This document shows, piece after piece, positions 1-41,486 of a DNA stretch of 41,754 nucleotides. The DNA is taken from positions 1 through 41,754 of IMG/VR virus record IMGVR_UViG_3300009068_000071. One strand, written 5' to 3'. The notes below the pieces were generated by a model. It was not told the DNA's origin. It saw only the letters and a list, made by a program, of their open reading frames with translations, and did not search any database. Every line of letters starts with the position of its first letter. Position 1 is the stretch's first letter. The translations under genes and the position numbers were made by a program. This stretch comes from a virus.

Positions 1-3000
1 CCAGGAGCCCTTGCCCTGATCGCTGAGATGGCTTTGTTATCCCGCTTACCGAACAATCGGCCAAGCGATTTGCTAAACTCGTCTTCCACCACCTTATCCA
101 TCTCCTGAGATATCTTGTCCAAGACCCTGGACAAGACTTTCTCATCGACCGTCACACCGCTGACCCGAAGCTCTTGGGCGAGTTCAGCGAGAACTTCTGC
201 TTTGTTGGCGGTCAGCTTGTACCGATTGCTAAAGATGAAATCCTTAAAGTTGAAAGCCGGGAGTGTCATAAATGCCCGCACATCTGACTTAGTGAAAGGC
301 TCATCCATAGCCAACTGCATGGCTTCCACAATTTGCTCGAAGCTGGAGTTATCTAACGTATCGCCCAGCGTGTCGTAAACCTCCTGCACCGCTTGTTGCA
401 AAGATTCCCAAAAGGTCATGGCATCCCGGAACCTGCGAATCGAAAGCAGCTTCCTTTGCTCAGCGCTCATCTTGCTTCTTGTGATCTTGAGCTGGTTTCC
501 AGCCTGGAGCTGGACTCGTTCACGAAGGATTCTGCGGATGACACCGACGGCAGTCTCTTTAGGCAGCTTTCCGTTCGAGTCTTTTGCGTCTAATGCTTTT
601 TCAAAGTTCTCAATAAATCCCGACAAGACATTCTCGATGATGACAGCACTCGTCTTGCTGACTTCTTGGTTTGGCTTAAGAGAGGAGGCCCCAACCGAGG
701 TATCCTCTTCGTCGACCATCTTAGTGTTCCCGTACCTTTTTGAGAGATGGTTTTGGATCTCGTCCGTAACAGCCTGCTTGGCGTCGTCAACCATGTCTTG
801 AGCGGACTCAAGGTTAGCTAGGACGTCTTCTTTGGCTACGCCCAACTCTTTTGCGGCCTCGGCAGGAGAAGGCGTACCCTTCTGGAGAAGTGCCGCTGTA
901 CCTTGAGAGATTAGAGAAGCAGCCTGGCTGCGCTTCTCCGCGGAATCCGGAACTTGCTTAAGAAGCTCCAGCATTTCCCTAGTTGTTTTGACCTGCTGAT
1001 CCAGGATATCTGAAAGTGTATTGGTGCTGACCTTCTGCCATTGCGAAGACATTTCGGCAACCCTGCGAGCCTTAAGCGCAAGTTGCGCCCAGATCGCATT
1101 GTTGGCTGATTCATTAATGAGTTGGCTGATTTTCTCGATTTCTCCAAGACCCATAACCTTTTCCAACGACTTGCTAACCGCTTCTTCGCCCGCGATTGTC
1201 CCTGCTTCAATGTCCTTGCCGAACAAACCAACCTGACGAAGACGCTCGTTCTTTTTCGCGTTGTCTGCAAACCAAAGCCAACCGGCCGCACCGATCCTTG
1301 AGTAAGCTCCAAAGGCCGCCAAGCCCTGCGCCAAGGACGTTCCCAAGTCGGCTTGCTTCTTGGCCAGCTCAAACTCCAAAGCATAAATCTCGTTCTTTCG
1401 ATCTGGGTTTTCTTTGGCGACATTCTCTAGTTGTTGCATCAGCAGTTGGTTCAAAACAACCATGTTGTCGAACTGCATTGAGCTACCGTCACGCAAAGCA
1501 TCTAACTCAGAATCGTTGACCTCTACGTCCGGGCTCAACAATAGTCTTGCCACAACCTCTGCCCCACCGTTTTGATTGATCAGCCCAAGCATCTCCTCAG
1601 CTCGTAAAGGCTGAGTCCGAACTTGATATTTCAAGGTCGAGAGGTTCGAGATGTTGTTAACCTCTTGGCTGAGTCGCTCATCGTTTGCCATCTGCCTAGA
1701 GAAACCTTGGCTCTTTGACATTCCTTCCCGCTCTCTGGCACCTTTTAACCCTCTCGCTCGGAACTCGCGCCGCTCGCCTTCAGCAGGGGTGCTTGCACCG
1801 GAAGCCTCTTCCTCGTTGAAAGATCTTACCCGCTCGACAGAAACATTGTTCTTTTTAAGAACCCAAGTGAGCAAACCAATCTGGTTTTTACGGAACACTT
1901 CTCCGTTGTAGTTAAATTGCCCACCACCAACTGTCAGGATTAGCTTAGCGGCAAGTTGCGACCTGGCTTCGTCGATTGTCCGAGCAGTTGTTGAGATCGG
2001 CATTCCGTTGATGCTGATTCTGTATTCCCCAACTCTCCGCCTACCCGAAAGCTTAACCAACCCGTTGCTTGTCATTTCGGGCTGAACTCGTGTTTCAGAA
2101 CCTTGTTGCAAGAAGGCGAACTCTCCTTGCCGAGCCGACTCCCTCCCAATTTTATACTTTGCTTCGGCTGTCCTACCCTTCACCTGCACATATACAGCCT
2201 GCTCTTCTGGAACCTTTACCGTATCCACATCGAGTGTGGTAGGCATGTAGTAGTCGAGGATCTTTGACCCAAAGCCAGGTAGACGAACAGAATTATCCAA
2301 AGCGATTTCGATTCTGGTTCCGTTGTTTTTACCAGTGAGCTCACCGTAAGTTGAGTCCATCAGGATGGAGGGTCTATTTTCAATCCGTTCTGTGAGCATT
2401 GTCTCGGGAGAAGTTCTGATCCACATAGCCGCACCGTCCCGAATGGTCATAACCTCAACTCGTGATGTGGCTAAAATATCCCCGAAAGCAGTCCTCTTGG
2501 TGTTACCTTCCTCGTAGAACTCGCCGAACACTTTGTCTTCGAGCTCTTGCTGGGTTAACCCTTCACCTTCGTCTTCAATGACGATCTTGTAGTTAGCTTG
2601 ATCGATTGTGACTCGAGTCTGTTTCTTTTTGCTCTCCTCGTTAAGCACAGAACCCTTCTTGCTTCTAGCAACAGCTTCTTCGAGAAGTTGAGTGGTGGCC
2701 TCAGCAGGGGCTAATGAACTTGCGTTCCCAGCTCGGTTAAAGACTTCGACTGCGTTAAAGACGGGAGCCGAGATACTGGCCATCCCTTCGGCCATTCCCG
2801 CATAACGATCCGGGTCAAACTCCTCTGGATCTGGTACGGAACTTCCTACGGCATTACCTTCTTTATCCACCAAACGAACACCTTGCGGCGCCCGGTCGAC
2901 ATAGACCATTTGGGGGTAGGTGACGTGAGCGCGTTCTTTAATAATCTTAAAAGCAAGGTCTTGGAGATTGTCCACCCGCATAGCCCCGGGGATTCGGAGC

Positions 3001-6000
3001 TGGTCTTCGGGTTTAGGCTCGTAGTCAGCTGGTAAACGATTGTGAGAAAGGAGTTCTGCCTTCGTGATCCCAAACTTTTTAGCAATATCGAGGGCAGTAA
3101 GTTTTTCAGGTGCTACGGCAAACCGAGGAACCTCAACGCTACGAGTTGTACCAGGGATGAGTAGTTGCGTCCCAGGTGTCAGTTTACCCATCACCAACGC
3201 GTTCGCCTGCTTGAGGGCGTCAACGGTTACTCCGTTCTGTGCGGCCAAGTCTGCCAAGACTTCATCAGACTTGCGGTATTGCACGGATGGAACTGTGAAC
3301 GTTGTCTCTGGAGCGGGCTGCTCGACCATTTGCTTCTTCCCACCAAACAAAAAGTTCTCGGATACATTTCGGCTAGGCCCGGTCGCGCTCATTTTGTTGC
3401 CCTTGCTAAACGCGCTCATGCTCTTTGGTGTGTTCCTGGCTAACGCCGTTTTCTGAATTTCTTTAAGTTTGTATGTCAAGACTTTGCCACCCCGGAAAGA
3501 GGCGAAACCAAACCTAATCGCAACGCTAACTACCTCGGGGTCGTCAATCTTTGCGCCCTTCGACAATAATTCGGTGAGGTAAGCTTCACCCTCTCGCTTC
3601 GCCATAAACTCAAAGTCTTCGTCCTTTGCGACGCCCCGCTCGATGGCTTGCTGGAGCTTATCATACCGACCTGCTCGGATCGCTTTTCGCACGTCCAGCT
3701 CATCGGTGCTAATAATCGTGTCTGCCTCTTCTTCGTTTTTCGGCTCTACCTTTACGGTTCTTGTAGCAATGTTTTTACCGTACCACTTGCCCTTGTAGAA
3801 CAAGTCGGAGGCTTCGCCCATCAACTGAATTGCTTTGGTTACTGCTTCGTCTGCGGTCCTTGCGCGGACATAGACTTTCCTTGCTCTAGAGTTTGTCGTT
3901 GTTATCGCTCCAGATTTTGTACCGCCATAGGTTTTGCCTTTCCACATCTTGGTAGGAGTTACGCCAACGCTTGAAGCAGGAATGTCTGGGGCGCCTGGGT
4001 TTAGTTGAAACTCCCAGCTTCTTTCGCCCCGCTCGTTAACTGCCGCTTCGTTCCTCATGCTACCGCTAATGATCTTCATCCCAGACATTGCTTTGGGAGC
4101 GATCTTCTTTTGGACCTCTTCTTCAGCCATCGGTTTAATTCTGCGGGCAGCCTCGAGATCCGGAGCTACTGGCAAGACAAGTCGGATTGAGGGGTACTCG
4201 CCACCTTGGTTTCTTGTGATGACTGCGCTACCTTTGTTGTTGTAATAGCTAGCTGCGGCCAGCTCCGAGTAGAAGTTAGAAACTAGTCTGCCATCCGAGA
4301 ACACAGGCGTGCGGTAATCTGTAGTTTCTCCGCTGTCTTTCTCAAACCCAATCAGCATTCCTTTGAACCCTTGACCCGCGTTTGATTGGATGATGGCTTT
4401 AGCTTTGATGCTTATCGGCTCTTGATTATTGAGGCCAATAAAACCTTTGGGGAAGACCCAAGTAATGTCTTTAGAGACCATTGGCTGTTCAATATCGACA
4501 CCCCTACGACGAAGCTCAGACCGAATAGCGTCAGGTAGGTTGGACACTTGCTTCTTAGTCAGCTTCTCACCTTTACCCGATTCTGAGGTTTGAATGGTTT
4601 TCACCAACTCAAGGCGAGCAAGGTTGTCTACGGCTCTAGTGTAATGCTCGACCAAGACCTGATCCCGGAAGTACCTGTCTTTGGCCACCTGCTCTTCGTC
4701 GCTTGCTTTCTGGAAGGCTTTTAAGTCTATTCCAAACTCGTCTCTCGAACTCATCGCTAAGACAGAGTCTTGCCATGCCTTTTTCGACTCAGCCGCGTTC
4801 TCTATTGCTTTGACCTTAAGCTCGGCAATTTGTCTGCCGCGTGTGGCCACCGATGGGGTTTTGCGGTAAGCGACTCGGGAATCCTTTTCGATTTGTTCCA
4901 GTAGTGCTGCCAAATGTAATCGATAAAATCCGTCCAGGGGCTTCAAAGGCTTTGCGCTTTTTATTTTTGCCTTGGGATTCAGCCACTCTCTCTTGGTCAC
5001 ATCCCATACTGCATCTGGATCGTCGAATAGGTTGTTCCTTACGCATGTTTTTAGGAACTTTAAGTAACCAGCCTCAGCCTTCTCCGCCATCTTTATAAAC
5101 TCTGGGTTTGTTTTGACGTTTATGGCGGACAAGAAACTCTTTAATTGGGTCGCCCGCTCTTGAGCTTCTACCAGCCTCTCTACCGCTTCGTCTTCTGCGC
5201 TTAGCACTCGCGAGGGCGATTTAGTTACCTGGGTTGCCCGAACAATCGGAAAGACCAACCTTGCAATCAACGGATCCTCAAGCTCGGCAGGAGCGTGAGT
5301 GGCCTCCATTAACCCGTAGGCCTTGGTGAAAAACTCTTTTAGCTCGTACTCGCCGTTTGCTTTTTCGATTACTTCTTTGGCCCATGCTTCGTCCATGGCC
5401 ATATTCTCGACCAACTTTCGGAGTTTAAACATTCTAGCCATCCCCGCCCGCTCAAAGGCGGACAGGAGCTGGTTATACAAAGCTCTGGATTTGTAGCCAG
5501 GCTCGTCGAGTTCGGCTGGGCGGATCGACTCTTCAAAGACTTCCTTATTCGCCGTTACTGGTTCATCTTCTTTGACAGCTTGCTCTGGGAATGGGTCTTG
5601 AACAACTTCGTCTTTTAATTTGAGAAGGCGGTTTGGGTCTTCAATTTCAAAGTCGCTTCTATCGTACCCTTCGAACATTGGGTCTTCGCCTTCAATCTCA
5701 GAAGAGGCCGAGTAGCCACCGTCTTGCCTGAGCAAGAACCTTGCACGTTCAACGCCAAGATCCAACGGTGTTTCCCCCGTAGAAAGAAGATCGTCCATCG
5801 GGCCAACGTCGACCTTCTCCCTGAAAGCATTCGCAATGCTCTCTAGGTAGGTGTCGAAAGCTTCATTTGTAGTCGCCCCAAATTGCATCCTGCCGTCCCG
5901 GTTCTTTCTCGTTGCAGCGAGCGTCTTCCACATCTGGTTAATTGCTTTTTGAATATCGGGTTGAGCTGTTATTTCGGGGTACGCTCCAACACCACCACCC

Positions 6001-9000
6001 TCCCGCAGCATATCATACTCTCCTTCGGCAAGACTTTCGATTGCGTGAAGGACGCTTCCTTTTTTGAATTTCTGAGTAAGCATTTCATTTGCCAAACGAC
6101 TTACAAAACCTTTGTACGTTTTAGCCTCTCCCTCTTTAAGAACTTCTGCTGAGGCTGAGACTTGTGCGAGTTTGAGGAAGTACCCAGATTGCTGTTCTCC
6201 GAGCTCAAGAATAGCTCTTGCCATTTCAGACTCTGGTATTGTCCCAGCAATACTTGTAAATCTTTCCATCGGCGCGAGGTAAGTTCTCAGGATTAGATAC
6301 TTTGTGTAGTCCTTGGCCGAGCTTACGTCCGAGTCGGTCACCAGCAGGTTCCGCTCCAAACGTGGCACAGCATTCGATTCGATCAGATTGTTTACAAAAG
6401 TTTTTGCCTCACCTATTTCAACAGACCCATTGAGGGCCATATCCCGAAGCAGCCGAACGTATTTCGGCGTCTTAACGATTGTGTCTACGTCTTGCTCGGC
6501 CATGGAGAGAGCACCGCTGAGCATTCCGCCTTCGGTATTAAATGCTTTAATAAGGTAGTTCAGTCGCGCTCTACCTGCCTCTGTAGACGTATCTACCGTT
6601 TCGTCCATTACTCGATAAAGCATCTTGTTGCCTTCGGCGTAATCCGCGGGAGCTGTCGAGCCAAGCTCTCTGGTTAGGTTTTTGGCGTTCTCTAATGTGT
6701 CGTTCTTGTTGGCTTCCTTTGCCCAGGCAGTTGCTCTGATCTGCTCACGACCGTTCCCACCGGCAACCATGTATTGGCCGGTAGCTTTGTCCCAAATCAA
6801 GATAGGAAGACCGCCGTTAGGTGAGCTGGAAACCTCTACAAGCTTACCTGCGTTGAACTTCGAAGCGCTAAGGTCGTTAACTTTCCGTTGTTCTGCTTTA
6901 TCCTTGGAGTAGTCCCGAGTGTTGAGTCCGGTATATTTCGGGTTCTTCGCGAAGAATTCTTTTGGCCCAAGGTGAGACGCCTGCACTTGGTTAAGGTTGA
7001 CCCACCCGTATCGGTATTTGTATTCGTTTGAAAGATGGTCACGAACTGTTCCTGCATCACCAAACACCTCCTGACCCGTGGGTAACTTCAGACTCTGGCT
7101 TCTGATGATCTCTTTCTTGAGGGGCTCAATATCCAGCTTCTCACTTGTCACCCTAGGCATCCCAGAGCTCTGGAGAGTTACCCTTGCCTCTTCTTCGCCA
7201 GACAAGAATCGAATAAGACTCTTAACAGATTCGCTCTTTTCCGGTGGTGCGTTGGCTCCATTGACTTGCAAGCTGTGAAGAACGGTATCGACGGCGTCTA
7301 ATACTCTTCCGATCGCGGGCATGTCCTTCACGGTCACGCCCATCTTCTCGAGCATGTCGAACAAAGCTTGGCGCATCATTTTGAACCAGTAGGCAATAAA
7401 CCCGTCCTTGGGGGCGCCCTTCAAAAGAGTTTTTAAGTTTGTCTCACTGTCGTCATCCGGACGCGTGAAGTCTTCAGTCGTGTACCCCATCCCGGCCTTT
7501 TGATGAATGAACCGCAGGTATTCAATGGCCATTTGTTTTGGGGTTAACTCGTTTCCGTATTTCGTTTGTATCAGTGCCTTCGATTCGGGTGACATCTCCT
7601 CCAACACTTTGGCGAGAATGTGGTTCATCGCGTGTTGGTAAGCTTCTTGGGCGGTCATATCTCCGTTTTGAATGTTCTCTTTGAACATGTTCGCTGAGAC
7701 AGCTCGGATCAAAGAGAACAGGGAGTTGTGCAACATCTCTTCCGAAACAATTGCCTGCAAGTACCCTTCACCTGCCTTTGCAACTTTATTTCTGAATGTG
7801 CTGGCTACACGGTACTGGCTGTTGGCGAACTTAGTCGGGTTCATGTAGATCGTGTTGTGATCTGTGTCCCCCCACTCCGTCCAAACCACTTTTTTGCCTC
7901 TCCGCCCAAAGATGATTTTAACATCCTTAAAGCCCATAGTCTGAAGCGTTCCGGCAACATCCCTAACAGCTTCTTGTTCGTAATCGAGAAGTGAAGAGTA
8001 GCGGGAATCAATTTTCATGCCCGACAAAGGAAGGGTTGCTTCACGATTCAGCCCCTCGTCCAAGTCAACTGCAATTGACCCTACTTCTTCCTCTTCCTCC
8101 AGCCCACTCATTGAGTTTCGGTCGACACGCCTCCCGCCATCAAACGGTAATTCTTGCTGACCTGATTGCGTATCTGGCGAAATACCCTGGCTTGCGGTCA
8201 GAATACCTTGCTTGGCTTCTTGTCGGTTAAGTCTTTCCTTGTCGGAGTTAATGTCTTCAGCAACTAGCTGGCGAATAACTGGTACGGACCGAGAAGATAC
8301 TCGGTGACCCACTCGGTAAAGCATCTGTTCGTGCTTATCGGCCGCTTCGTTCGGAGTTGCCAGGATAAGTGACCTGGGGGCGGTTCCAGTCTGATCGTCC
8401 AGATTGAGACCTGCCCCGCCTTTTGTTGGGGTGGCTAGAGCCACTTTCTTTAGGCCAGTTTGGAAATCGTTAACGTCTGTGGTCATCTGGCTTCCGCCTT
8501 CTCCGTAAAGAACGGCAGGGTTGTAGCCAGCTGCTGTGAACATTTCGTTCAGCGTTTCCAGCATTGATTTAACTTCGCCAAGTCCTAACTCAGGGAAGGC
8601 AACTGGGCGGACGAGCTCGCCGAACACAACAACCTGCTTCCCATCCTGAAGATCCTGCATCGCCAACTCAAAGACCGCTGGTGCTTTACTTATTTCAGCC
8701 CACGCCTCAGTCTTAAATTTAAGCATGGCCACGAGCTCAAGAGATTTTGCGTTATCAACTTTTGACACTGGCGCTGCAGCGTCTCCCTTGAGTTCGTCAA
8801 TCTGCCTGCGGTAGTAGTTTTCGATTTGCTGAATCTGGCCAGCAATTTGTTCGCCTGCTTCAAGTCGGACTGTGGAGACTTGGGGTTTACCGCTGTCGGA
8901 AACCCGACGAACGTACGCCCCAACCGTAGCTGCGCTTTCCAAAAGGTTCGCAATTGTCTGTTCTGGGTTCCTCGACTTCTCGATCATGGTGTCGACCGTT

Positions 9001-12000
9001 GCCTGAGATTTCCCAAGGATGTCGGGAAGGAAGTATCGAATCCCACCAATCCGGTCTGTCGGGGTCGCAGAGAGGAAGATTTTGAATGCGCTCGTCTGCT
9101 TGGACAACCTGCTCCGAGCTGTGTTGGAGTTCTTTAAATTCTGAGCCTCGTCGAATACAAGAACATCGGCCGTCTCAATGTCTGGAATTGAGCCCTTGGA
9201 GTAGGCGTCCAATGTGTAGAAATATGTCCGACGGCTGGTGATGTTGGCCGCGGCAAGCTGGCTCTTTAACCCACCCATGCTGGCTTCGATCAGTTCATTG
9301 TTTTCCGTTATGACGATGACTTTACCAATTGCTTCTGGGTCTTTGGCCTTAGCAATCTTGTCGGCAATTGTCCGAGCCGCTGCAAGGCCGGTTCTTGTTT
9401 TTCCGAGGCCGGGATCGTCAGCAATAAAAGCAGCCTTACGTCCATTTTCATACGCCATGACAACTAGGTTTGCTCCCTTACGTTGGTGTGGGAGAAGGTT
9501 GTAAATGGACGGAACCTTGTCTGGTACGTTGACTGGGTTCTGACCAGAGATGATCCTTACTGTTGGCTCGGTCAACCCACGACCAGGTTGTTTGGCCGAA
9601 AGCATTGCCTGCATGTCCCGAATTGCTTTGAGGGCTGCCCCGGATCGTGGGGACATATCGAGATCGTCTTGTATGTTGGCGACTTCAACTGGGCTCAACA
9701 TCCCAGACTCTTCGAGTTCCGATAGGAGATCTCTCGCCACAGCTTGAGTGTCTTTGTCGTAAGCAGACAGTTGCGGCTTGCTGGATTGACGGCTGAGAAC
9801 CTGGAACGATTTCTCAGGCCCTTCGACAATTACCGGAAGCTCACCGCTCATGCGGTACTTGGTCATGTCGGAGTCAACCTTGTCGGCAACGTATGCTGCG
9901 AACTCGTCGATCAGTTTTGGTAGAATCTTCTGCAACTCACCTGTGCTGGTGGCGATCCCGTTTTGAATTAAGACTCCTGCAATTTCGGAAAGCTTGGTTG
10001 TGTTTTTAGCTAAATCTTTTGGGGAGGAGTTCTTTTTAGAACCCTCCATAAGAGCTGCACCCAGAAGGTAGCGTTTTGCAAAGTCATTACCCAGGCTTGC
10101 GAAGTATGAATTCCTAGCGTTCTTGCTGATATCTCTTCTGACTTCGGGTTCTTCCAAAGGCTTTGCGGTGTTGTCCGGCACGTAGTCTTCAAGGGTTGAG
10201 CCGTCATCATCCCCAACCTTTGTCTGAAGACTCATGCTAGCTTCCAATCCGACCTTGCCCCCCATACGCCTTCCAAATTTTCTGGCGTAGTCTGCCGTTA
10301 CGCTCCCCCAGATTCTGTTCTTAGAAAGACTTGGTACAACGTTTGCCTTAAACAGTTCCTCTGCTTCCCCTTCCCCAAGTGTCTTTGTCCTGTTCTTAAG
10401 GCGATCGTGCTTAACTCGAAGTTGCCGCCAGTAACGCATTCTCGCCGCATTCGCTAGTCGACTCTCGTCCACAGAATACTCGGGATGGTTCTGCCGGTAG
10501 TTGGCTGCTTTACGCCTAAAGTCGCTCTCAGCCAGGGTAAGAAGTTGCGCCTCCCCGGGAGCTGGCGGGAGCTTATTGATGCTATCTGAATATTCCGGCG
10601 ATTCTTCGTTCAGCTTGATCTCACCTGTCACCCGCGAACCTGGCTGCTTCACCCTAGCCAACCGCTTAACTGGCGCTGGCTTATTTTGTTCTAGTCTGGC
10701 TAGACGTGCGTTGAGATCTTGCAACGCCGAAACCGTAGTTGTCGGGAGAATTGTTTCTTCTTCTTGCTCGACTTCCACTTCAGCCTTCGGAAGCGAAGGT
10801 TTGTTTGAAAGACGGATTTGCCGCTTAACTGCACGAACAAATGCAAGTTGTCCCTGTTCAGTGTCTGGTATTTTAAGTTCAGCATCTTTAAGCGCTGGGA
10901 TAACCTTGTCCATGAACTCGGCCATGGAAAGATCTGCGGGAAAAACTTCGCTATCATTAGCAAACGGACGCCCTTCACTCTTCAAGGTAGGACGAAGGCT
11001 CTGCAAATAAAACTCAGAAGCGTAATCGACAGCACGCTTTTCAGCGGGGTCTTCCGGAACTTCGGATGCTCCTACAGCAGAGCTAAAATCAAGCTCGAGT
11101 TGCTTGGCTAGTTTGTTTTCTGGGAAAACGCTTTTGTATTTTGAAGGAGCGCCCCTGCGGTTGAAGTTAAGATCAACTTGCTCGTCTTTCTTCTCTTCTG
11201 GCTCACCAGTTGTAATAACCCCAGATGGGTTCACAACCGGAAGATCCATTAAAGGCTTGTCTTCTTCCTGCTTAGCTGGCCCCTCAATTTGAGTTACAAT
11301 TTTTGCTGGCCGCCCAGGACGGCTGAAGTTTAGCTCATCTGCGACTGACGCTCCGCTTAGCTCGGGCTCGTCCTTGTCATAAGGGCTTGCCTCTTTACCT
11401 TGTTCAGGAGACCCGGCGATGCGCCCCAGGACTTGCTGGCCGTATGAGGGCTTGGTCTGCTCGCCTTCTGCTGGGGCTGGGGTTTGGACTTCTTCTTGTG
11501 GCGCTGGTGATTCTTGCTCATTGGTTTTTGGCTTCGGCAGTAGGTCGTTCAGATCGAGATCTTCATCGATTCCTGCAAAAGGCTCTTCGGGTTTAATCTC
11601 AGGCTTGATTGTTTGCTCTACCTCTTTTGTTAAGGTTGAGTCTTCTAATGCTTTTGAAGTTAGTGGCGCGTTGGGGATTGGAGACGTCCCACCAAGGCGA
11701 GGACCGCCTTCACTAAACCCTTCAAGAGTCACATCCGAAAAGGCTCGGACATTTCCTTGGTTGACCCCCAATACCCTGGCCGAAGCCAGACCTTCGCCTT
11801 TTTGAACCTTTGGAAGGAGGTCAGTTAAAATTGTATAGTCTTTCGAAGTCCCCTTACCCCTTGATACACGCTCAATCGCTGCTTGAGCTTGCTCTTCTGT
11901 TACCGGGATTTCTCCGTAAATAGTTTCTGTTGGGCCTTTAACTTTAGTTTTGAAATGCTCTGAGACCCGACTACCCCATTGAGCTCCGAGAATTGCATTT

Positions 12001-13106
12001 AAGTCGGAACGCTCGTCAGGCGTCGCTGTTCCGTCTTTCATCTTCTCGACCAGAACGTCCCACTTCTGTTTGCCGTATTCTGCAGAAGTTCCCTTCAGCC
12101 CCTTACCCGAGAACATTGTTCCAAGGAACGTGTCAAAAGCCAGACGCTTGGGGTCAAATTCTCTATTGATGGCTTGCGCTGCTCCGCTGAAAGCCGCTCC
12201 TCCGAGCGCTCCAAGACCAAGCTGTCCGGCAATAACCTTTGCACCACCCAACTTGTTTTCCATTTGGGCAGTAGTTCGCCCAGCGCTGATAACACCTTTA
12301 ATGCTTCCAACCGCTGCGGGGGCCATCGGTAGAAGCATCCCAACCTGGTAATAACCAGGGGCAGACTCTTTGGCATCCTTGATGTACTGAGCAGCCTCGA
12401 TCCCGTTATCTGCAGAATATCCAAGAAGGGCATCGAAACCTTTTAGAGTTGCTTCAAACCCAAGTGCTGCGCCTGCTCCAGCTCCAATTGTACCCAGAAC
12501 AGGAGCGGCCGGACTCTCAGGACCACCAGCCAAAAGAACACCACCGTACATCCCGACTTTTCCTGTTTGGTGCGCGACCGCCATTGCAGCACCACCTTCG
12601 ACAAGACCAGCCCCAAACGCTGTTGCCTTTTGAGCGGTGGTGACAGTTCGTTCAGGCTGATCGAACATCAAAGGCTCGCCATCTTCCCGTTCTACCACTG
12701 CTTGGTTAACCGGAAGCTTGTCGGGTTTCTTGCCTGACAACCAATCGTCAAGACTCATATCCTGCTTTAGCGTCGGTTCTTGAACAAACATCGGGTATTC
12801 AACATCGCTCGAGGCCAGCTCAACCGACGAAGGAGGATTCGAGAAAACGTTTAGCTTGTCCCCTTTTGAAACAATCGTTTTATCAACAACACCCAATGCC
12901 GTATCTTGATTCGGGTTTTCTCTAGCCGCGCCAGGTATTGGCTCGCCTTTTATGAAAGCATCCAGCTCCGCACCACCAACCGAAGAAGAAATATCTTTTG
13001 ATGTACCTTTTACAAAGTCATCCAACTCTTGTGGTAGAACCCCCTTGGGTGCTTGTGAGCTGTTTAGAAAATCGTCCAAGCCGGACGGAAGGCCAGAATC
13101 AGACAT
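1..13106 (-). CDS. Giant polyvalent ejection protein (SF2 helicase, DdrB-like ParB, LysM x2, GHKL ATPase), C-terminus beyond window
   Basis: One frame stays open from ATG 13106 (SD GGAG, 3 nt after the upstream stop) to the left edge: at least 4368 residues. Visible in order: four LDDF-type motifs (residues 10-125); Gly/Ala-rich hydrophobic segments (about 155-316); Pro/Glu-rich linkers; an SF2/SNF2-like helicase (about 1200-1620) with Walker A GLGKT (1233-1237), DEAQ (1319-1322), SAT (1346-1348), GGAGLNLDD (from 1563) and YRVGHRVSSR (from 1597); a DdrB-like ParB-fold region (about 2030-2200) with GGNGR at 2116; two LysM domains (3275-3319, 3332-3374); a GHKL-type ATPase (about 3470-3605) with DEGEG (3512-3516) and GTR near 3596; then helical sequence. 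Similar domain mixtures are known as polyvalent proteins of phages and conjugative elements. It is the last gene of an ejection-protein block, in the place of T7 gp16, so entry with the DNA is inferred. No lytic transglycosylase or methyltransferase is recognisable in the visible part. Confidence 0.9.
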   Translation of the reverse strand, partial: MSDSGLPSGLDDFLNSSQAPKGVLPQELDDFVKGTSKDISSSVGGAELDAFIKGEPIPGAARENPNQDTALGVVDKTIVSKGDKLNVFSNPPSSVELASSDVEYPMFVQEPTLKQDMSLDDWLSGKKPDKLPVNQAVVEREDGEPLMFDQPERTVTTAQKATAFGAGLVEGGAAMAVAHQTGKVGMYGGVLLAGGPESPAAPVLGTIGAGAGAALGFEATLKGFDALLGYSADNGIEAAQYIKDAKESAPGYYQVGMLLPMAPAAVGSIKGVISAGRTTAQMENKLGGAKVIAGQLGLGALGGAAFSGAAQAINREFDPKRLAFDTFLGTMFSGKGLKGTSAEYGKQKWDVLVEKMKDGTATPDERSDLNAILGAQWGSRVSEHFKTKVKGPTETIYGEIPVTEEQAQAAIERVSRGKGTSKDYTILTDLLPKVQKGEGLASARVLGVNQGNVRAFSDVTLEGFSEGGPRLGGTSPIPNAPLTSKALEDSTLTKEVEQTIKPEIKPEEPFAGIDEDLDLNDLLPKPKTNEQESPAPQEEVQTPAPAEGEQTKPSYGQQVLGRIAGSPEQGKEASPYDKDEPELSGASVADELNFSRPGRPAKIVTQIEGPAKQEEDKPLMDLPVVNPSGVITTGEPEEKKDEQVDLNFNRRGAPSKYKSVFPENKLAKQLELDFSSAVGASEVPEDPAEKRAVDYASEFYLQSLRPTLKSEGRPFANDSEVFPADLSMAEFMDKVIPALKDAELKIPDTEQGQLAFVRAVKRQIRLSNKPSLPKAEVEVEQEEETILPTTTVSALQDLNARLARLEQNKPAPVKRLARVKQPGSRVTGEIKLNEESPEYSDSINKLPPAPGEAQLLTLAESDFRRKAANYRQNHPEYSVDESRLANAARMRYWRQLRVKHDRLKNRTKTLGEGEAEELFKANVVPSLSKNRIWGSVTADYARKFGRRMGGKVGLEASMSLQTKVGDDDGSTLEDYVPDNTAKPLEEPEVRRDISKNARNSYFASLGNDFAKRYLLGAALMEGSKKNSSPKDLAKNTTKLSEIAGVLIQNGIATSTGELQKILPKLIDEFAAYVADKVDSDMTKYRMSGELPVIVEGPEKSFQVLSRQSSKPQLSAYDKDTQAVARDLLSELEESGMLSPVEVANIQDDLDMSPRSGAALKAIRDMQAMLSAKQPGRGLTEPTVRIISGQNPVNVPDKVPSIYNLLPHQRKGANLVVMAYENGRKAAFIADDPGLGKTRTGLAAARTIADKIAKAKDPEAIGKVIVITENNELIEASMGGLKSQLAAANITSRRTYFYTLDAYSKGSIPDIETADVLVFDEAQNLKNSNTARSRLSKQTSAFKIFLSATPTDRIGGIRYFLPDILGKSQATVDTMIEKSRNPEQTIANLLESAATVGAYVRRVSDSGKPQVSTVRLEAGEQIAGQIQQIENYYRRQIDELKGDAAAPVSKVDNAKSLELVAMLKFKTEAWAEISKAPAVFELAMQDLQDGKQVVVFGELVRPVAFPELGLGEVKSMLETLNEMFTAAGYNPAVLYGEGGSQMTTDVNDFQTGLKKVALATPTKGGAGLNLDDQTGTAPRSLILATPNEAADKHEQMLYRVGHRVSSRSVPVIRQLVAEDINSDKERLNRQEAKQGILTASQGISPDTQSGQQELPFDGGRRVDRNSMSGLEEEEEVGSIAVDLDEGLNREATLPLSGMKIDSRYSSLLDYEQEAVRDVAGTLQTMGFKDVKIIFGRRGKKVVWTEWGDTDHNTIYMNPTKFANSQYRVASTFRNKVAKAGEGYLQAIVSEEMLHNSLFSLIRAVSANMFKENIQNGDMTAQEAYQHAMNHILAKVLEEMSPESKALIQTKYGNELTPKQMAIEYLRFIHQKAGMGYTTEDFTRPDDDSETNLKTLLKGAPKDGFIAYWFKMMRQALFDMLEKMGVTVKDMPAIGRVLDAVDTVLHSLQVNGANAPPEKSESVKSLIRFLSGEEEARVTLQSSGMPRVTSEKLDIEPLKKEIIRSQSLKLPTGQEVFGDAGTVRDHLSNEYKYRYGWVNLNQVQASHLGPKEFFAKNPKYTGLNTRDYSKDKAEQRKVNDLSASKFNAGKLVEVSSSPNGGLPILIWDKATGQYMVAGGNGREQIRATAWAKEANKNDTLENAKNLTRELGSTAPADYAEGNKMLYRVMDETVDTSTEAGRARLNYLIKAFNTEGGMLSGALSMAEQDVDTIVKTPKYVRLLRDMALNGSVEIGEAKTFVNNLIESNAVPRLERNLLVTDSDVSSAKDYTKYLILRTYLAPMERFTSIAGTIPESEMARAILELGEQQSGYFLKLAQVSASAEVLKEGEAKTYKGFVSRLANEMLTQKFKKGSVLHAIESLAEGEYDMLREGGGVGAYPEITAQPDIQKAINQMWKTLAATRKNRDGRMQFGATTNEAFDTYLESIANAFREKVDVGPMDDLLSTGETPLDLGVERARFLLRQDGGYSASSEIEGEDPMFEGYDRSDFEIEDPNRLLKLKDEVVQDPFPEQAVKEDEPVTANKEVFEESIRPAELDEPGYKSRALYNQLLSAFERAGMARMFKLRKLVENMAMDEAWAKEVIEKANGEYELKEFFTKAYGLMEATHAPAELEDPLIARLVFPIVRATQVTKSPSRVLSAEDEAVERLVEAQERATQLKSFLSAINVKTNPEFIKMAEKAEAGYLKFLKTCVRNNLFDDPDAVWDVTKREWLNPKAKIKSAKPLKPLDGFYRLHLAALLEQIEKDSRVAYRKTPSVATRGRQIAELKVKAIENAAESKKAWQDSVLAMSSRDEFGIDLKAFQKASDEEQVAKDRYFRDQVLVEHYTRAVDNLARLELVKTIQTSESGKGEKLTKKQVSNLPDAIRSELRRRGVDIEQPMVSKDITWVFPKGFIGLNNQEPISIKAKAIIQSNAGQGFKGMLIGFEKDSGETTDYRTPVFSDGRLVSNFYSELAAASYYNNKGSAVITRNQGGEYPSIRLVLPVAPDLEAARRIKPMAEEEVQKKIAPKAMSGMKIISGSMRNEAAVNERGERSWEFQLNPGAPDIPASSVGVTPTKMWKGKTYGGTKSGAITTTNSRARKVYVRARTADEAVTKAIQLMGEASDLFYKGKWYGKNIATRTVKVEPKNEEEADTIISTDELDVRKAIRAGRYDKLQQAIERGVAKDEDFEFMAKREGEAYLTELLSKGAKIDDPEVVSVAIRFGFASFRGGKVLTYKLKEIQKTALARNTPKSMSAFSKGNKMSATGPSRNVSENFLFGGKKQMVEQPAPETTFTVPSVQYRKSDEVLADLAAQNGVTVDALKQANALVMGKLTPGTQLLIPGTTRSVEVPRFAVAPEKLTALDIAKKFGITKAELLSHNRLPADYEPKPEDQLRIPGAMRVDNLQDLAFKIIKERAHVTYPQMVYVDRAPQGVRLVDKEGNAVGSSVPDPEEFDPDRYAGMAEGMASISAPVFNAVEVFNRAGNASSLAPAEATTQLLEEAVARSKKGSVLNEESKKKQTRVTIDQANYKIVIEDEGEGLTQQELEDKVFGEFYEEGNTKRTAFGDILATSRVEVMTIRDGAAMWIRTSPETMLTERIENRPSILMDSTYGELTGKNNGTRIEIALDNSVRLPGFGSKILDYYMPTTLDVDTVKVPEEQAVYVQVKGRTAEAKYKIGRESARQGEFAFLQQGSETRVQPEMTSNGLVKLSGRRRVGEYRISINGMPISTTARTIDEARSQLAAKLILTVGGGQFNYNGEVFRKNQIGLLTWVLKKNNVSVERVRSFNEEEASGASTPAEGERREFRARGLKGAREREGMSKSQGFSRQMANDERLSQEVNNISNLSTLKYQVRTQPLRAEEMLGLINQNGGAEVVARLLLSPDVEVNDSELDALRDGSSMQFDNMVVLNQLLMQQLENVAKENPDRKNEIYALEFELAKKQADLGTSLAQGLAAFGAYSRIGAAGWLWFADNAKKNERLRQVGLFGKDIEAGTIAGEEAVSKSLEKVMGLGEIEKISQLINESANNAIWAQLALKARRVAEMSSQWQKVSTNTLSDILDQQVKTTREMLELLKQVPDSAEKRSQAASLISQGTAALLQKGTPSPAEAAKELGVAKEDVLANLESAQDMVDDAKQAVTDEIQNHLSKRYGNTKMVDEEDTSVGASSLKPNQEVSKTSAVIIENVLSGFIENFEKALDAKDSNGKLPKETAVGVIRRILRERVQLQAGNQLKITRSKMSAEQRKLLSIRRFRDAMTFWESLQQAVQEVYDTLGDTLDNSSFEQIVEAMQLAMDEPFTKSDVRAFMTLPAFNFKDFIFSNRYKLTANKAEVLAELAQELRVSGVTVDEKVLSRVLDKISQEMDKVVEDEFSKSLGRLFGKRDNKAISAIRARAP
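12730..13085 (-). repeat. Four copies of a short LDDF-type motif at the N-terminus of the giant protein
   Basis: The first 125 residues contain GLDDFLNSS (9-17), ELDDFVKGT (27-35), ELDAFIKGE (47-55) and SLDDWLSGK (118-126). Each is acid-acid/Ala-aromatic-aliphatic, most followed by a Lys or Gly, and they are separated by polar disordered-looking sequence. Spacing is irregular, so this is a repeated linear motif rather than a folded repeat. Confidence 0.7.
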
Positions 13107-13109
13107 GCC

Positions 13110-14228
13110 TTACTCCGTTGGTAGTTGTTCATCACCCATATCGATTTGCAAGTCATCGATTTCAACTCCGGTGTCTTGAAGCTTCTGTTCAAGAGCGTCC
13201 AGCATATCTAATGGGATTTGGAATGTTTGTGTTCCTCCGTCTTTATTTTTTAGTCTGATGTTTGTCATCGTGTCCACGGGAAGCCCAACGCTTGCCATAG
13301 CCTGCTGAGCAATCTTCGGCGTCAGACTTCCCGAAGCAGCAAGGTTGTTTAAGGTAACCGAAGCCTGATAGGCTTTCTCTGCTCTCTTGTATCTGATATC
13401 GATATCCGCCATGGCTTTCTTTTGATCTTCAGCCCGCAACGTTTGGTTATTCATCACGGCCGATTTTTGAGTACCCAGGTTGTTCAGCACTTTAATAGAG
13501 TTCTGAACATTCATAGCCATCGTGTTGCCAGTTGCGCGTGCTTGAACAGCCCCAATTCTCCCAGCAGCGTTAATCTGAGCCACTTTTTGAGCGCCCTCGT
13601 TCCGTAGCATAGCCGCGGCTACGGATGGGTTCGAAACAAGTGCCCTCTGTGCTTTGTATTTAACAGCATCGTTCAAGAGAGCGACTTTTTCAGGCGGAAG
13701 CTGGGAGATTGAAACACCCTGCTGAAGTTGGGTCTGAAGTTCCGCTAGAAGCTCCCGATCAACTGGTTTATCCGCAAGCTGGGTTCCGTACTCCGCCGTC
13801 GCTTCAATGTGGCCCATTCTTGTTTGGTAGACTGAAGACTTCCCAAGTGCTTCCATTCGCATGGCTCTGAAGTTGGCCTCATTCTCCGCGTTTAACCTGT
13901 CTTGAGCTAACTTGGAGTAACCCGGAATTTCAATCGGGGTATAGTTTGCTTTTATAAGACCATCGACATCACCCTTCATAGCCATTGATTGCAGACTTCC
14001 AAACTGTTGGCTTGTCTGACCGTAGCTAGAGGCTTTTGCGTGATTTAAGTCGAGCGTCTCGTTTGCGTCTTGGATCTGTAGACTCTTAAGCTGGTTCTCC
14101 AAGTTGTATGATTTTTCTCGAAGGCTTAACTCTTGTTGAGCGCGAGCCTCCCGAAAGCCCATCAATACATTACTGCTAAGGGCTTGGAGATTGGACGCTA
14201 CTGAAAGTCCGTATTGATCAGGTGTCAT
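13110..14228 (-). CDS. Putative internal virion/ejection protein (T7 gp15 position)
   Basis: This 372-residue protein is predicted mostly helical, rich in Gln and Ala, with a coiled-coil-like stretch at about residues 25-60 and a helical core; I see no signal peptide, membrane segment or catalytic motif. The start is ATG 14228, two nucleotides after the upstream stop, and its own stop lies 3 nt before the giant gene, so the two are almost certainly cotranslated. No family is recognised from sequence alone. The role is inferred from position: the third gene of a block (GNAT-like, Gly-rich, helical, giant) that matches the order of the T7 internal core genes 13-16. It could equally be another minor structural protein. 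Confidence 0.75.
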   Translation of the reverse strand: MTPDQYGLSVASNLQALSSNVLMGFREARAQQELSLREKSYNLENQLKSLQIQDANETLDLNHAKASSYGQTSQQFGSLQSMAMKGDVDGLIKANYTPIEIPGYSKLAQDRLNAENEANFRAMRMEALGKSSVYQTRMGHIEATAEYGTQLADKPVDRELLAELQTQLQQGVSISQLPPEKVALLNDAVKYKAQRALVSNPSVAAAMLRNEGAQKVAQINAAGRIGAVQARATGNTMAMNVQNSIKVLNNLGTQKSAVMNNQTLRAEDQKKAMADIDIRYKRAEKAYQASVTLNNLAASGSLTPKIAQQAMASVGLPVDTMTNIRLKNKDGGTQTFQIPLDMLDALEQKLQDTGVEIDDLQIDMGDEQLPTE

Positions 14229-14230
14229 GT

Positions 14231-15121
14231 TTAGTAAGCCCTACCCCTCCAACCACCCCATCCAGACCCACCACCGTCAAACCCACCACCCATCCCGTAA
14301 CTACCAAGCATCGAAAGATTCGAACCAAAGCCTTGAAAAATGCTTCCCATACCTTGACCTTGAGCTCCTCCAAAAGACCCACCAATTCCGCCACCCAACG
14401 ACGAACCAATCCCAGCTCCCATCATAGCACCCATAGGATTCATGCCGGAAGCAAAGAAGCCGCCAAGACCCCCTAAGAGACCTCCACCAGCTCCGCCTAG
14501 AAGACCGGTCATAGAGTTACCACCGTATTGCTGATCATACGCGTAGTTTGATTGCGCCTGCATGTTTGCCACATTGGCGTTCGCCTCCGCCTGCTTGTTG
14601 GTGATCTGATTATTGTATTGGGCAAGCGTGTTGTCTTCAGAACGAATTCCTTGCGGCGTGAACGCAAGATTCATTGCTTGAAGCGGCATAAGGTTGCGCG
14701 CCTCGTTACGGAGGCCAGACTGCATCTGCAATCCACGACCCATCAAATCAAGACTTGTCGTCCCTAGATCCCTAGCCGTGAGCAACTCCCTTTGTTGTGA
14801 GCCAAGGCCGTTTGTCAGACCTTTAAAAGCTGAGCTTTGCGAAAGCTTTAAAGCAACATCTGCCGGGATATTTCCGTCTACCAACGAGTCAGCCATTTGC
14901 TGAGCCTTGTCCAATCCAGATTTGTAGCCAGGGCGAAGACTGTCGAGCGCATCCAGGTAGCCACTAGCAGACTGGCGAATTGTTTCTTGGACATCGCCAA
15001 AATTGTCTCTTTGCGAATTAAATTTATCGTAGCTTGTGTCTAAACCAGCAAGCTCCAGCTTGGTGTAATTAGGTGCTACGTATTGCGGTTTTTTAGGCTT
15101 ACTGCCACCAAAACATCCCAT
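14231..15121 (-). CDS. Putative internal virion protein, Gly-rich C-terminus (T7 gp14 position)
   Basis: A 296-residue protein that begins MGCFGGSKPKKP. Residues 1-190 are polar and helical with many Gln/Asn (for example QYNNQITNKQAEANAN). From about 200 onward it is dominated by Gly, Met and Ala with hydrophobic stretches (GLLGGAGGGLLGGLGG, GAMMGAGIGSSLGGG), and ends in a Gly/Trp-rich tail. A glycine-rich hydrophobic half is compatible with membrane insertion during DNA ejection, as proposed for T7 gp14. The start ATG 15121 has a strong SD (AAGGAG). It sits between the GNAT-like gene and the helical gene. Function is inferred from position and composition, not from a recognised domain. Confidence 0.75.
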   Translation of the reverse strand: MGCFGGSKPKKPQYVAPNYTKLELAGLDTSYDKFNSQRDNFGDVQETIRQSASGYLDALDSLRPGYKSGLDKAQQMADSLVDGNIPADVALKLSQSSAFKGLTNGLGSQQRELLTARDLGTTSLDLMGRGLQMQSGLRNEARNLMPLQAMNLAFTPQGIRSEDNTLAQYNNQITNKQAEANANVANMQAQSNYAYDQQYGGNSMTGLLGGAGGGLLGGLGGFFASGMNPMGAMMGAGIGSSLGGGIGGSFGGAQGQGMGSIFQGFGSNLSMLGSYGMGGGFDGGGSGWGGWRGRAY

Positions 15122-15122
15122 A

Positions 15123-15536
15123 TTAAGCTAGCTCCTTTTGAAACATAACTGTTTGCCCCATTTCGGTGTATCCAAGTCTCCCCATGTGTTTAAAGTAAGG
15201 AGAATCTTCTGAGCAGATAGTTACGTATCGGTTAATTCCTTTTGTTTTGGCGAGATCTTCTACTTCTTTTAAAAGTTCAAGCGTGTCCCTTGCTTTGCCT
15301 TTTTGTGAATCTACCCACCACATAAGAACAGGTGTTGAAAAAATCCCAGCATACCCAATGAGCTCTCCGTTTTTCCTAAAGATATGCGACGGGAAAACAA
15401 CATCGTGGTGATCTTTGTTGGCCGCCAAAACAAGTTCTTGGAATTCCCCTTGGGATTGGATTTCGTGCATTTTTGAAGCTGCCATAGGGTCACTTAAGTT
15501 TAAGTCAGACACTGATTTGTCAAGAATGTCGCTCAC
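15123..15536 (-). CDS. GNAT-like virion protein (T7 gp13 position)
   Basis: A 137-residue protein with features of the GNAT N-acetyltransferase fold: an N-terminal helix, central strands (ELIGYAGIFSTPVLMWWVDS), a helix after a Lys-rich QKGKARDTLELLKEV segment, and a C-terminal strand-helix-strand (YFKHMGRLGYTEMGQTVMF) of the kind that ends GNAT domains (F/Y-kxGFxxxg). The canonical acetyl-CoA pyrophosphate loop (Q/RxxGxG/A) is only partly matched by QKGKAR, so activity is uncertain. The start is GTG 15536, whose GTGA overlaps the stop of the upstream gene, indicating coupling. T7 gp13 and relatives have a GNAT-like fold and sit next to the core proteins, which supports a virion role. Confidence 0.75.
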   Translation of the reverse strand: MSDILDKSVSDLNLSDPMAASKMHEIQSQGEFQELVLAANKDHHDVVFPSHIFRKNGELIGYAGIFSTPVLMWWVDSQKGKARDTLELLKEVEDLAKTKGINRYVTICSEDSPYFKHMGRLGYTEMGQTVMFQKELA

Positions 15537-19333: not shown

Positions 19334-19368
19334 TTGATATTCTCCGAGGTTAGTGTTTTACTTTTTTT

Positions 19369-19374
19369 TGTCAA
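19369..19374 (-). promoter_or_regulatory. Post-stop TTGACA element before the RCC1-repeat gene
   Basis: Read on the minus strand, the stop codon TAA (19386-19384) of the fibre gene is followed after 9 nt by TTGACA and an A-run. It matches a consensus -35 box, but no good -10 box is found 15-18 nt downstream. It belongs to the recurrent set described in the findings. Confidence 0.35.
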
Positions 19375-19383
19375 GACGTTGTT

Positions 19384-20927: not shown

Positions 20928-20960
20928 ACCACCTCATTTCTACACGGTTTCATATTTTGT

Positions 20961-22250: not shown

Positions 22251-22261
22251 TTAAGTTAAAC

Positions 22262-22642: not shown

Positions 22643-22643
22643 G

Positions 22644-24190: not shown

Positions 24191-24194
24191 AGGT

Positions 24195-24929: not shown

Positions 24930-25183
24930 TAGTTAACCCTCAAGATTGCGTTGTTCGGAAACACAATCAGCTTTGCCGTTGTGGTAGGCAAGCCGTCTTC
25001 ATCAATTTCGTACGGGCCGTCAACGGCTAGTCCGTCATCTGCTAAAGCCCCACCCGGGAGGTTTGCTAACGCACTTTTATCCGTAAGCCCAAGATAGTCG
25101 ATGGTCTCAGTAGCTTGCGCGACAATGTTGTCATACATCCCCTGCCCGCACCCACAAGCCTCAGTAGTACATTCAACGCTCAT
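24929..25183 (-). CDS. Small tail-region protein, 84 residues, Cys-rich N-terminus
   Basis: From ATG 25183 the product begins MSVECTTEACGCGQGMYDNI, with four Cys in its first 12 residues, then a helical stretch (IVAQATETIDYLGLTDKSAL) and a C-terminal acidic part ending LIVFPNNAILRVN. I do not recognise a family. The start is set by an excellent SD (AGGAGG, 9 nt upstream) and an ATGA overlap with the nozzle-like gene; a longer frame starting at 25267 would have no such signal. It is followed at once by the first collar gene. Confidence 0.75.
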   Translation of the reverse strand: MSVECTTEACGCGQGMYDNIVAQATETIDYLGLTDKSALANLPGGALADDGLAVDGPYEIDEDGLPTTTAKLIVFPNNAILRVN

Positions 25184-28100: not shown

Positions 28101-28473
28101 TTTTAAAAGTATCTTGTTTGTTGATATACAGGAACGCGCCTTGGAAGAGGTTCCCAGTTTCCTTGCCCGCATAATCTTTGCCTGACGTGAAAAGCGTGCG
28201 GCTTGTTGCCGGTTTTCCGTTGTCATCCGCCTGCGCTTCCGGATCGTCTAACAAAAAGGCCTGCACATATCCGGGTCTTGTCTTTGGCCGTCCGCCTCGA
28301 AACGTTACGTTAATTGCACTAATAACTACGTCCTTTGCCGCTAACTCCGGCACAATCGAAGCATCCATCCCACCAGTCCAATCGAGCTGACCGTCTTGGA
28401 CTCTGTTGTTTTGAGAGGAAACTGGCTGTATGGGTTGTGACTGCCCATCAGACTCTTGTTTAGATTCCGCCAT
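25180..28473 (-). CDS. Nozzle-like (tail tubular B-like) protein with an inserted Gly-rich domain
   Basis: The product is about 1097 residues. The N-terminal part (LDWTGGMDASIVPELAAKD, INVTFRGGRPKTRPGY) and several strands that follow match the general opening of podovirus tail nozzle/tubular proteins (GGM..., RPGY). Residues about 722-945 are a Gly-rich domain that opens with WVCPENVTAVTIECWGAGG and closes with GSGLVKLTYTPN; flanking sequence resumes as before, so it reads as an insertion. The C-terminal ~150 residues are helical/strand mixed and end VVEQKGGGGICT. Two starts are possible: TTG 28479 and ATG 28473; a GAGAGGG lies 6 nt before the TTG and 12 nt before the ATG. I use ATG but the TTG is a real alternative. 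The stop overlaps the next ATG (ATGA). Confidence 0.8.
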   Translation of the reverse strand: MAESKQESDGQSQPIQPVSSQNNRVQDGQLDWTGGMDASIVPELAAKDVVISAINVTFRGGRPKTRPGYVQAFLLDDPEAQADDNGKPATSRTLFTSGKDYAGKETGNLFQGAFLYINKQDTFKNYIIAVCSGRVFKIDPISGYVRRLKCETDVGPRDLRIDACRRCYFAQAERFLVIQNGLDQPLIFDGEFLHKAGTGSVGSIGIVASSLPIGTLMAYGQGRLFVASQNRTTFLAGDIVYGGSTNQIAISTSAVGSTVVLTTSTNHGLASGDVVTISGHSSSPDLNGTWKATVLTNTTFSIPAGCSSAGSGGFVIKANAGKDTDLLRFTETTYLSEGGSFQLPSEMGRITGMLFQPIADTATGQGDLMVFGETGVVTFSVAAPRELWKTAPGFQRITLSKIGSVCERFLVPINNDIYFRSADGVRSYRNARADQEGTGETPFSTPVDAFMDFDTEYMYEAGSAVYFDNRLIFTVGPTENLKNIGNNPVKMQPITHRGYGVFDFSSMSRPNTEFSPIWDGLWTGLNTTQLIAGQINRTPRCFAFVLNPETLENELWELYPWALYDYTLTSSGDRIQCAIETRGYSFNSPWNLKKLVRGDLWVSGFEGETTMNVLYRPDGSACWIPWHTLEICAANQTCFPDNSIAQPDTSAPYESVSQPLVSFLQTSGRVVTRAQKWALSLFPEEMSDYFYLRVPDTVGDGQEPFGLVNSSPQTVYSDQPTTTTWVCPENVTAVTIECWGAGGAGGSAQRVGGAGSIQLGGGGAGGAYAKKLNYPVTPGTTYYINVGTSAQNTSTVTGTAVSGGDTWFNSTNSPSTIILAKGGAGGSSAIGSTSVTAFGSSGVGTTTGSFGELRYAGGSGAAGSALGSGGGGSGAGYAANGVNATGSAGGVAPLGGGSGGSGNSSSSLPGTAGAQPGGGGAGGRNSSGTLTVGAAGGSGLVKLTYTPNSVVIGSNTLKDKTTTLVSFKDPNLAANLQSVLRAVGFSSCTVARSLEDPYLFLIDFVNYKVEKPDIVPAALTSTDGCGDAAPTNNKTQFRSQMRLPTPAEACAQNTGRSAKVAHVFQFRIEWQGVLGLQRLLVHCEKVVEQKGGGGICT

Positions 28474-28482
28474 GGCCAAAGT

Positions 28483-41453: not shown

Positions 41454-41458
41454 TTGCA

Positions 41459-41486
41459 ATATTAAAAGTGGTCAAGAATACGTCAA
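41459..41486 (-). promoter_or_regulatory. Candidate promoter for the terminase gene
   Basis: On the minus strand, TTGACG (41486-41481) and TAATAT (41464-41459) are separated by 16 nt, a sigma-70-like arrangement. Transcription would start about 6 nt later, at or beside the ATG at 41453, which implies a leaderless mRNA. No SD is visible before that ATG. Confidence 0.45.

Follow-up and report, generated by a model that had tools for sequence, protein, structure and literature searches.

With a probability of roughly 0.8, the giant protein encoded at one end of the viral contig analysed here is an ejection (pilot) protein from a podovirus-type phage, the largest of its block and the last in it. 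Its sequence relationships point to the gp16/internal virion protein D (IVP-D) class: the C-terminal domain of this class appears to have been kept, and about 2,300-4,000 residues of exchangeable polyvalent cargo to have been added ahead of it. The window, i.e. the whole stretch of DNA that was analysed, is the complete IMG/VR record IMGVR_UViG_3300009068_000071 (41,754 bases). The podovirus morphology presumes a short tail, for which the nozzle gene is a candidate by position only.

The gene for the giant occupies positions 3..13106 on the minus strand. Its ATG lies at 13106, 3 nt past the stop codon of the preceding gene and about 9 nt downstream of a Shine-Dalgarno-like GGAG, and the frame runs for 4,368 codons without an internal stop until it is cut, still open, by the left contig edge. 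In a second genome the protein is matched at 43% identity in two long HSPs (residues 51-2461 and 2516-4364). A further contig, L003 (IMGVR_UViG_3300027971_000120), starts within the gene, overlaps the last 100 codons of the window's giant with 98% amino acid identity and extends the gene by 850 residues to a stop codon. From this overlap, the full-length giant would comprise about 5,218 aa; complete homologues measure 5,241 aa (G001) and 5,127 aa (G004). G001 is 75,237 bp long, has a 127-bp direct terminal repeat in its assembly and was taken as complete. L003 belongs to a different, related phage: identity to the G001 terminase is 62% for the L003 enzyme, compared to 85% for that of the window. 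Of the differences between the window's giant and L003 over the 100 shared codons, 18 are synonymous and 2 nonsynonymous (omega 0.027), and omega values of 0.07-0.13 were obtained among the giants of relatives. Hence, the giant is under purifying selection and is not a chance frame. The first-pass annotation had proposed a single frame of at least 4,368 codons and a leftward extension to find its C-terminus; the uninterrupted, conserved frame and the stop codon in L003 bear out both. No part of the protein is more informative than its C-terminus, which falls outside the window and was read in relatives.

Using the window's terminase, 26 related viral loci were recovered. The terminase large subunit (39729..41459, minus strand) was recognized by tblastn to annotated TerLs (best E 7e-8), and its matches among cultured phage records are at 21-29% identity only. 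A conserved gene order emerged, consisting of the terminase, a portal-position and a capsid-position gene, small genes, a gene of about 800 aa, fibres, a homologue of a 296-aa protein, a gene of 340-390 aa and, last, the giant. In the window, the 738-aa portal-position protein (37468..39684, minus strand) is a portal by position only, and a 1,099-aa protein (25180..28479, minus strand; 788-884 aa in relatives) is a candidate tail nozzle by position; structure prediction of the latter (pLDDT 39) was too poor for use. The giants fall into two subgroups. Subgroup A (5.1-5.2 kaa) comprises those of the window, G001, G002 (partial) and G004, and subgroup B (3.5-4.3 kaa) those of G003, G006, G010, G011 and G012, the last being divided between the two overlapping ends of its contig. 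Between the subgroups, BLAST similarity is confined to the C-terminal ~450 aa (23-28% identity, E to 4e-25). When the first 500 codons of the G003 and G006 giants (L091/L092) were compared, dS was 2.6, as opposed to 0.07-0.9 in the rest, suggesting that the N-terminus was exchanged by recombination.

Among 50,697 cultured phage records, tblastn gave no match to the giant or to the portal-position, capsid-position and 1,099-aa proteins. Early genes in relatives encode an integrase, an SF2 helicase, DNA polymerase A, DUF5906, DUF2800 and GP88. An assignment to the T7-type phages was rejected, given that these four late proteins lack cultured-phage homologues and that a relative carries an early set of integrase and DNA polymerase A/DUF5906. 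The tyrosine integrase lies beside the terminase in G001 (18093-19394, 38 bits), and the lineage may therefore be temperate. A scan of genome contigs with the C-terminal domain of the giants found no relative.

The link to the IVP-D class was obtained through the C-terminal domain. When the C-terminal half of G010's giant served as a tblastn query, it led to a 1,121-aa protein of Podoviridae sp. ctQWt234, whose gene closes the late block of a circular 40,140-bp genome that comes from Manatee Spring and was submitted as Podoviridae. Residues 601-1113 of this protein correspond to 2842-3450 in the G003 giant (blastp E 3e-24). A profile of the giants' own C-terminal domains finds it at E 2e-34, and a profile of subgroup A, the window's type, alone at 2e-11. 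Against 743 proteins including reversed decoys, only ctQWt234 and the IVP-D proteins of HTVC011P (0.004) and ProddE (0.005) scored below 0.1 with the giants' profile. After addition of ctQWt234 to the profile, the IVP-D proteins of ProddE, HTVC011P and Syn5 were matched at 4.5e-7, 5.6e-6 and 1.6e-5, respectively. The hhalign probability against an IVP-D alignment was 93.7% for the giants alone and 98.3% with ctQWt234. The ctQWt234 protein itself matches phrog_6651, 'internal virion protein', at E 2e-24, and tblastn with its C-terminal 521 aa retrieves many internal virion proteins (D), from T7-like podoviruses of Pelagibacter, Roseobacter and Synechococcus and from Desulfovibrio phage ProddE. 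By these profile comparisons, the C-terminal ~450 aa of the giant family are homologous to the IVP-D class. For the window's own giant, the link is made via relatives, with L003 supplying the end, and goes through ctQWt234. T7 gp16 was not found from the C-terminal domain by BLAST or hmmsearch, the two being too divergent. At least one strongly hydrophobic stretch is present in the C-terminal domain of every complete-ended giant except that of G012. The giant had been placed in the position of T7 gp16, and its last place in the late block of relatives agrees with this; the idea that it replaces gp16 has to be corrected, as the homology in relatives indicates that it contains a gp16-class module.

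The genes ahead of the giant are consistent with an ejection block. The 296-aa Gly-rich protein (14231..15121, minus strand; 1 Cys), conserved in 8 aligned genomes, is a candidate gp14-like ejection protein. The 372-aa protein (13110..14228, minus strand; 0 Cys), which directly precedes the giant as in the giant-bearing relatives, is a candidate gp15-like one. Upstream of both lies a possible GNAT-like acetyltransferase (15123..15536, minus strand; phrog_1249 E 0.003; PF00583 15.7 bits, below the cut-off of 20.7). Thus, of the block originally described as 'GNAT-like, Gly-rich, helical, giant', the Gly-rich protein, its 372-aa neighbor and the terminal giant were recovered, but the GNAT call is weak. 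GNAT genes precede ejection-type blocks in BcepIL02 and in ctQWt234, where a phage stabilization protein and two hypotheticals are followed by GNAT, proteins of 150 and 320 aa, a 252-aa four-helix bundle and the 1,121-aa protein. The window's lineage and ctQWt234 thus share the order GNAT, ~300 aa, ~250-370 aa and last large gene, and a block order of the gp14-gp15-gp16 type has been described (PMC8954989).

The giants are nearly devoid of cysteine, with 1/4368 residues in the window, 1/5241 in G001, 2/3480 in G003 and 2/4344 in G010, and their two upstream neighbors contain 0-1. The average is 0.6-1.1% Cys in the remaining late proteins of these genomes (binomial P for the giants 1e-7 to 1e-23), and fibre-region proteins of 977-2,822 aa contain 3-11 cysteines. 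Ejection proteins of known phages served as controls: cysteine counts are 1/0/0 in T7 gp14/15/16, 0/0/0 in P22 gp7/20/16, N4 gp50/51/52 and BcepIL02 gp66/69/70, 0 in the PEp14 giant and 1 in that of Atu_ph08, and the last four genes of the ctQWt234 late block encode none. The other virion and packaging proteins of T7, P22, N4 and BcepIL02 average 0.70% Cys, and P1 DarB has 8 cysteines in 2,255 residues. Exceptions with 1-3 cysteines are T7 gp14 and the IVP-B and IVP-D of ProddE (3 in IVP-D), so that the absence of cysteine from ejection proteins is a tendency, not a rule. For N4-type virion RNA polymerases this absence was noted earlier and linked to their transit through the tail (PMC3915230). 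Near-absence of cysteine across the three-gene block could provide a simple sequence sign for ejected proteins in uncultured phages.

Ahead of the C-terminal domain, the window's giant carries a series of domains, all on the minus strand. Short repeats (LDDFL/LDDFV/LDAFI) occupy residues 10-52 (12951..13079), with a fourth copy, LDDWL, at 119; they were not found at the N-termini of the relatives compared. Distinct short tandem motifs stand at the N-termini of different giants, namely LDDFL in the window (residues 10-123), DPEILAQF in L102 and AGYS(D/L)(D/E)E in L101, and are possibly a packaging signal. L101 (6638-16183; 3,181 aa) and L102 (5990-21298; over 5,103 aa) are the giants of two more uncultured phages, with a related helicase (24% identity) and 0 and 1 Cys, respectively. 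A Gly/Ala-rich segment, as claimed in the first-pass annotation, is indeed present at residues 161-320 (12147..12626).

The SF2/SNF2-like helicase covers residues ~1193-1616 (8259..9530) and displays DPGLGKT, DEAQ, SAT, GGAG and Q..YR..HR motifs. Its original assignment is upheld by the Pfam model ResIII, which scores 25.5 bits in the window (cut-off 22.5) and 31.6 in G001; the match to the SNF2 structure 1z63 is weak (E 0.02). The motifs are kept across three members, except for GKG instead of GKT and DESQ instead of DEAQ in G004, where helicase activity may be lost. A separate, early SF2 helicase of 422 aa is encoded in G001 (20730-21998; Helicase_C 42.7 bits), with homologues elsewhere (e.g. 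G002 28811-30085). It is related to the helicase of the giant (E to 1e-7), and the cargo helicase may consequently have come from this early gene of the phage itself, or both may share a source.

Further along, a SEEMLH motif (residues 1788-1793; 7728..7745) fits EExxH and could be a degenerate zincin, and a THETVH (HExxH) motif is visible in the G003 giant; the MPTase-PolyVal model matched neither. The DdrB/ParB-like region (residues ~2030-2149; 6660..7019) contains the motif GGNGREQ. For the DdrB-like ParB-fold domain proposed here, the GN(G/A)RE motif is kept at an aligned position in 3/3 members, but PF18763 reached 18.1 bits (cut-off 27.6), and did so, at the aligned position, in G004 only, one of the three. 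A predicted structure of residues 1741-2430, which include this region, had a pLDDT of 50, too low to test the fold, and Foldseek with this model gave no match at E <= 0.001.

Two LysM domains (residues ~3279-3376; 2979..3272) were detected as two stretches by Pfam with 38.9 bits in the window, 45.5 in G001 and 35.2 in G004 (cut-off 20.9), in accordance with the earlier call, and the region also matches PDB entries such as LytE. A GHKL-like region (residues 3477-3567; 2406..2678) is poorly conserved. The suggested GHKL domain yields weak HATPase_c matches in two of three members (20.9 bits in the window, 22.2 in G001), but these lie below the cut-off of 26.4, and the G1 motif (DxGxG), DEGEG in the window, is lost in G004.

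Pfam and PHROGs scans of the giant recognized no lysozyme, transglycosylase or murein hydrolase and no RNA polymerase domain. Pfam scans of the giants found no methylase, and no methyltransferase is paired with the helicase. The Kinase-PolyVal model did not match, nor did LPD38 at the C-terminus of the giants in a search run without a positive control. Sigma-factor matches were judged to be due to chance, and PDB profile searches returned nothing but LysM and the weak SNF2 match. A role in cell-wall passage, as proposed earlier, is supported insofar as LysM binds peptidoglycan, but not by any recognized murein hydrolase; LysM without a recognized hydrolase suggests anchoring rather than digestion. 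An N-terminal transglycosylase is present in T7 gp16, absent in P22 and not universal in the gp16 class (PMC8954989). The polyvalent nature of the protein is supported: SF2 helicase and LysM domains both score above cut-off in one chain, and in subgroup B the ART-PolyVal model (cut-off 31.2) is passed by the G010 giant (31.8 bits) and nearly so by that of G003 (28.8 bits). In the window's giant, neither ART-PolyVal nor another dedicated PolyVal domain scored above cut-off.

Apart from the giant, the window encodes a CHAP-like amidase/peptidase (28905-29435; 24.2 bits versus a cut-off of 26), 81% identical to its G001 homologue. It adjoins the gene of a 143-aa protein with a PD-(D/E)xK-like motif (28483-28914; YDLITD...RVQVKST), and in 11 aligned genomes this gene, nuclease-like although placed among tail genes, is kept next to the CHAP-like one within the late block. 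At 22644-24929 lie three tail-collar/fibre paralogues in tandem, and most relatives also have three copies. A 738-aa fibre (17117-19333) has RCC1 repeats and a weak CBM5/12-like N-terminus, and gene content at its place differs among relatives. Likewise, a 1,025-aa ORF (32782-35859) stands between two conserved late genes where relatives have other genes; its sole match to G001 covers 29 residues (79%). In G011, a 2,822-aa fibre-region protein (19939-28407) contains several internal copies of a segment that is rarer in relatives.

How the giant is packaged and ejected, its topology and what each domain does are inferred as follows. Made late, the giant would be packaged in the head along with its two upstream neighbors of 296 and 372 aa. 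If T7 and N4 are a guide (PMC8954989, PMC12633501), all three would leave the virion ahead of the DNA and traverse the envelope, where the two smaller ones would form the outer-membrane and periplasmic parts of the channel, as T7 gp14 and gp15 do. Passing through the tail, the giant would behave like a string of domains that fold independently of one another and contain almost no cysteine. Its gp16-class C-terminus would seat at the inner membrane, LysM would hold the peptidoglycan, and the helicase and ParB-like domains would reach the cytoplasm and act on the incoming DNA, in protection against restriction or in helping its uptake; for the helicase, DNA remodelling may be another role.

Alternatively, the giant might resemble P1 DarB, as a polyvalent protein that is packaged in the head and injected together with the DNA to act against restriction, taking no part in a trans-envelope channel. 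SNF2/SF2 and DdrB/ParB-like domains are typical of Dar/Ddr-type proteins of P1 (PMC5512222), and the gene for the giant does sit among late genes. However, DarB contains cysteine (8/2255) where the giant has nearly none, the giant stands last in a three-gene block of ejection type, its family shares a C-terminal domain with IVP-D, and no cultured phage record, DarB-like ones included, was matched by tblastn. We therefore regard this reading as unlikely.

Two further explanations are very improbable to a similar degree. Large, late and partly helical, the giant could be a tape measure, enlarged by enzymatic domains, from a phage with a long tail, given that none was identified elsewhere in the genome and that the nozzle candidate is named from its position. 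Yet its length varies from 3,480 to 5,241 aa among syntenic phages, it comes last, after the fibre genes, and the homologue of its C-terminus, which matches IVP-D, lies at the end of a 1,121-aa gene in a genome deposited under Podoviridae. A late intracellular protein for host takeover or superinfection exclusion, never packaged, would be compatible with the data insofar as packaging of the giant is a prediction. Cysteine exclusion, synteny and the IVP-D homology speak against this, as does the finding of a comparable giant in virions of a Bcep22-like phage. An ejection protein of the gp16/IVP-D class thus remains our preferred reading. We consider it an even bet that the C-terminal domain of this class is a general delivery platform, which one lineage keeps, swapping several thousand residues of effector cargo ahead of it (helicase/ParB/LysM versus ART) and delivering chains of 3,500-5,200 residues into the cell by way of a short tail.

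Giant multidomain virion proteins are already known from Bcep22-like phages ('DarB-like') and N4 (virion RNA polymerase). As far as could be checked, the lineage, the domain set and the retention of a gp16/IVP-D-class C-terminal domain with exchangeable cargo ahead of it are new. This would join channel-forming gp16-class ejection proteins with polyvalent effector proteins, until now treated apart. The Bcep22-like phages (Lessievirus, Pavtokvirus) have proteins of 4.5-4.9 kaa (BcepIL02 gp70, JC1 gp69, PEp14) which, akin to the window's giant, are multidomain, contain a helicase, lack cysteine (0 Cys) and come last in a block after GNAT and ejection-type genes. The 4,515-aa giant of JC1 was detected in CsCl-purified virions with 51 unique peptides (PMC9144972). 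The arrangement had been called uncommon, which overstates the general idea, as BcepIL02, DC1 and JC1 all have giants of ~4.5-4.7 kaa last in a similar block. The Bcep22-like giants carry transglycosylase and methylase domains (that of DC1 is annotated transglycosylase/helicase/methylase), whereas the window's giant has LysM and no methylase. Between the latter and the Bcep22-like giants or DarB, no sequence homology was detectable, the C-terminal domain included. Homology to Bcep22-like structural or giant proteins was also dismissed, nothing past weak tail-fibre matches being found, so that the likeness is organisational.

With polyvalent proteins (Iyer et al. 2017, PMC5512222), the giant shares the combination of many unrelated enzymatic domains in one chain adjoining virion genes, and the related G010 giant carries ART-PolyVal; the words LysM and GHKL are absent from the main text of that study. 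N4 gp50 is likewise a giant, cysteine-free third ejection protein in the role of gp16 with two smaller partners, but its enzyme is an RNA polymerase, a domain not recognized in the window's giant. The IVP-D/gp16 proteins of T7-like podoviruses (Syn5 gp45, HTVC011P, ProddE; phrog_6651) have the homologous C-terminal domain, the last place in the ejection block and almost no cysteine, but are 1,230-1,415 aa long, compared to over 5,000, and have no annotated helicase, LysM or ART cargo. Syn5, HTVC011P and ProddE are Autographiviridae, whereas the window's lineage is not T7-like in its early genes. The 1,121-aa protein of ctQWt234, with its homologous C-terminal half, the same GNAT/~300/~250/last-large order and 0 Cys, has no recognized Pfam cargo domain and is about a fifth of the giant's length. 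From 1,121 to 5,241 residues, these proteins would form a graded series with one common C-terminal domain, in which the division into ejection part and cargo becomes testable.
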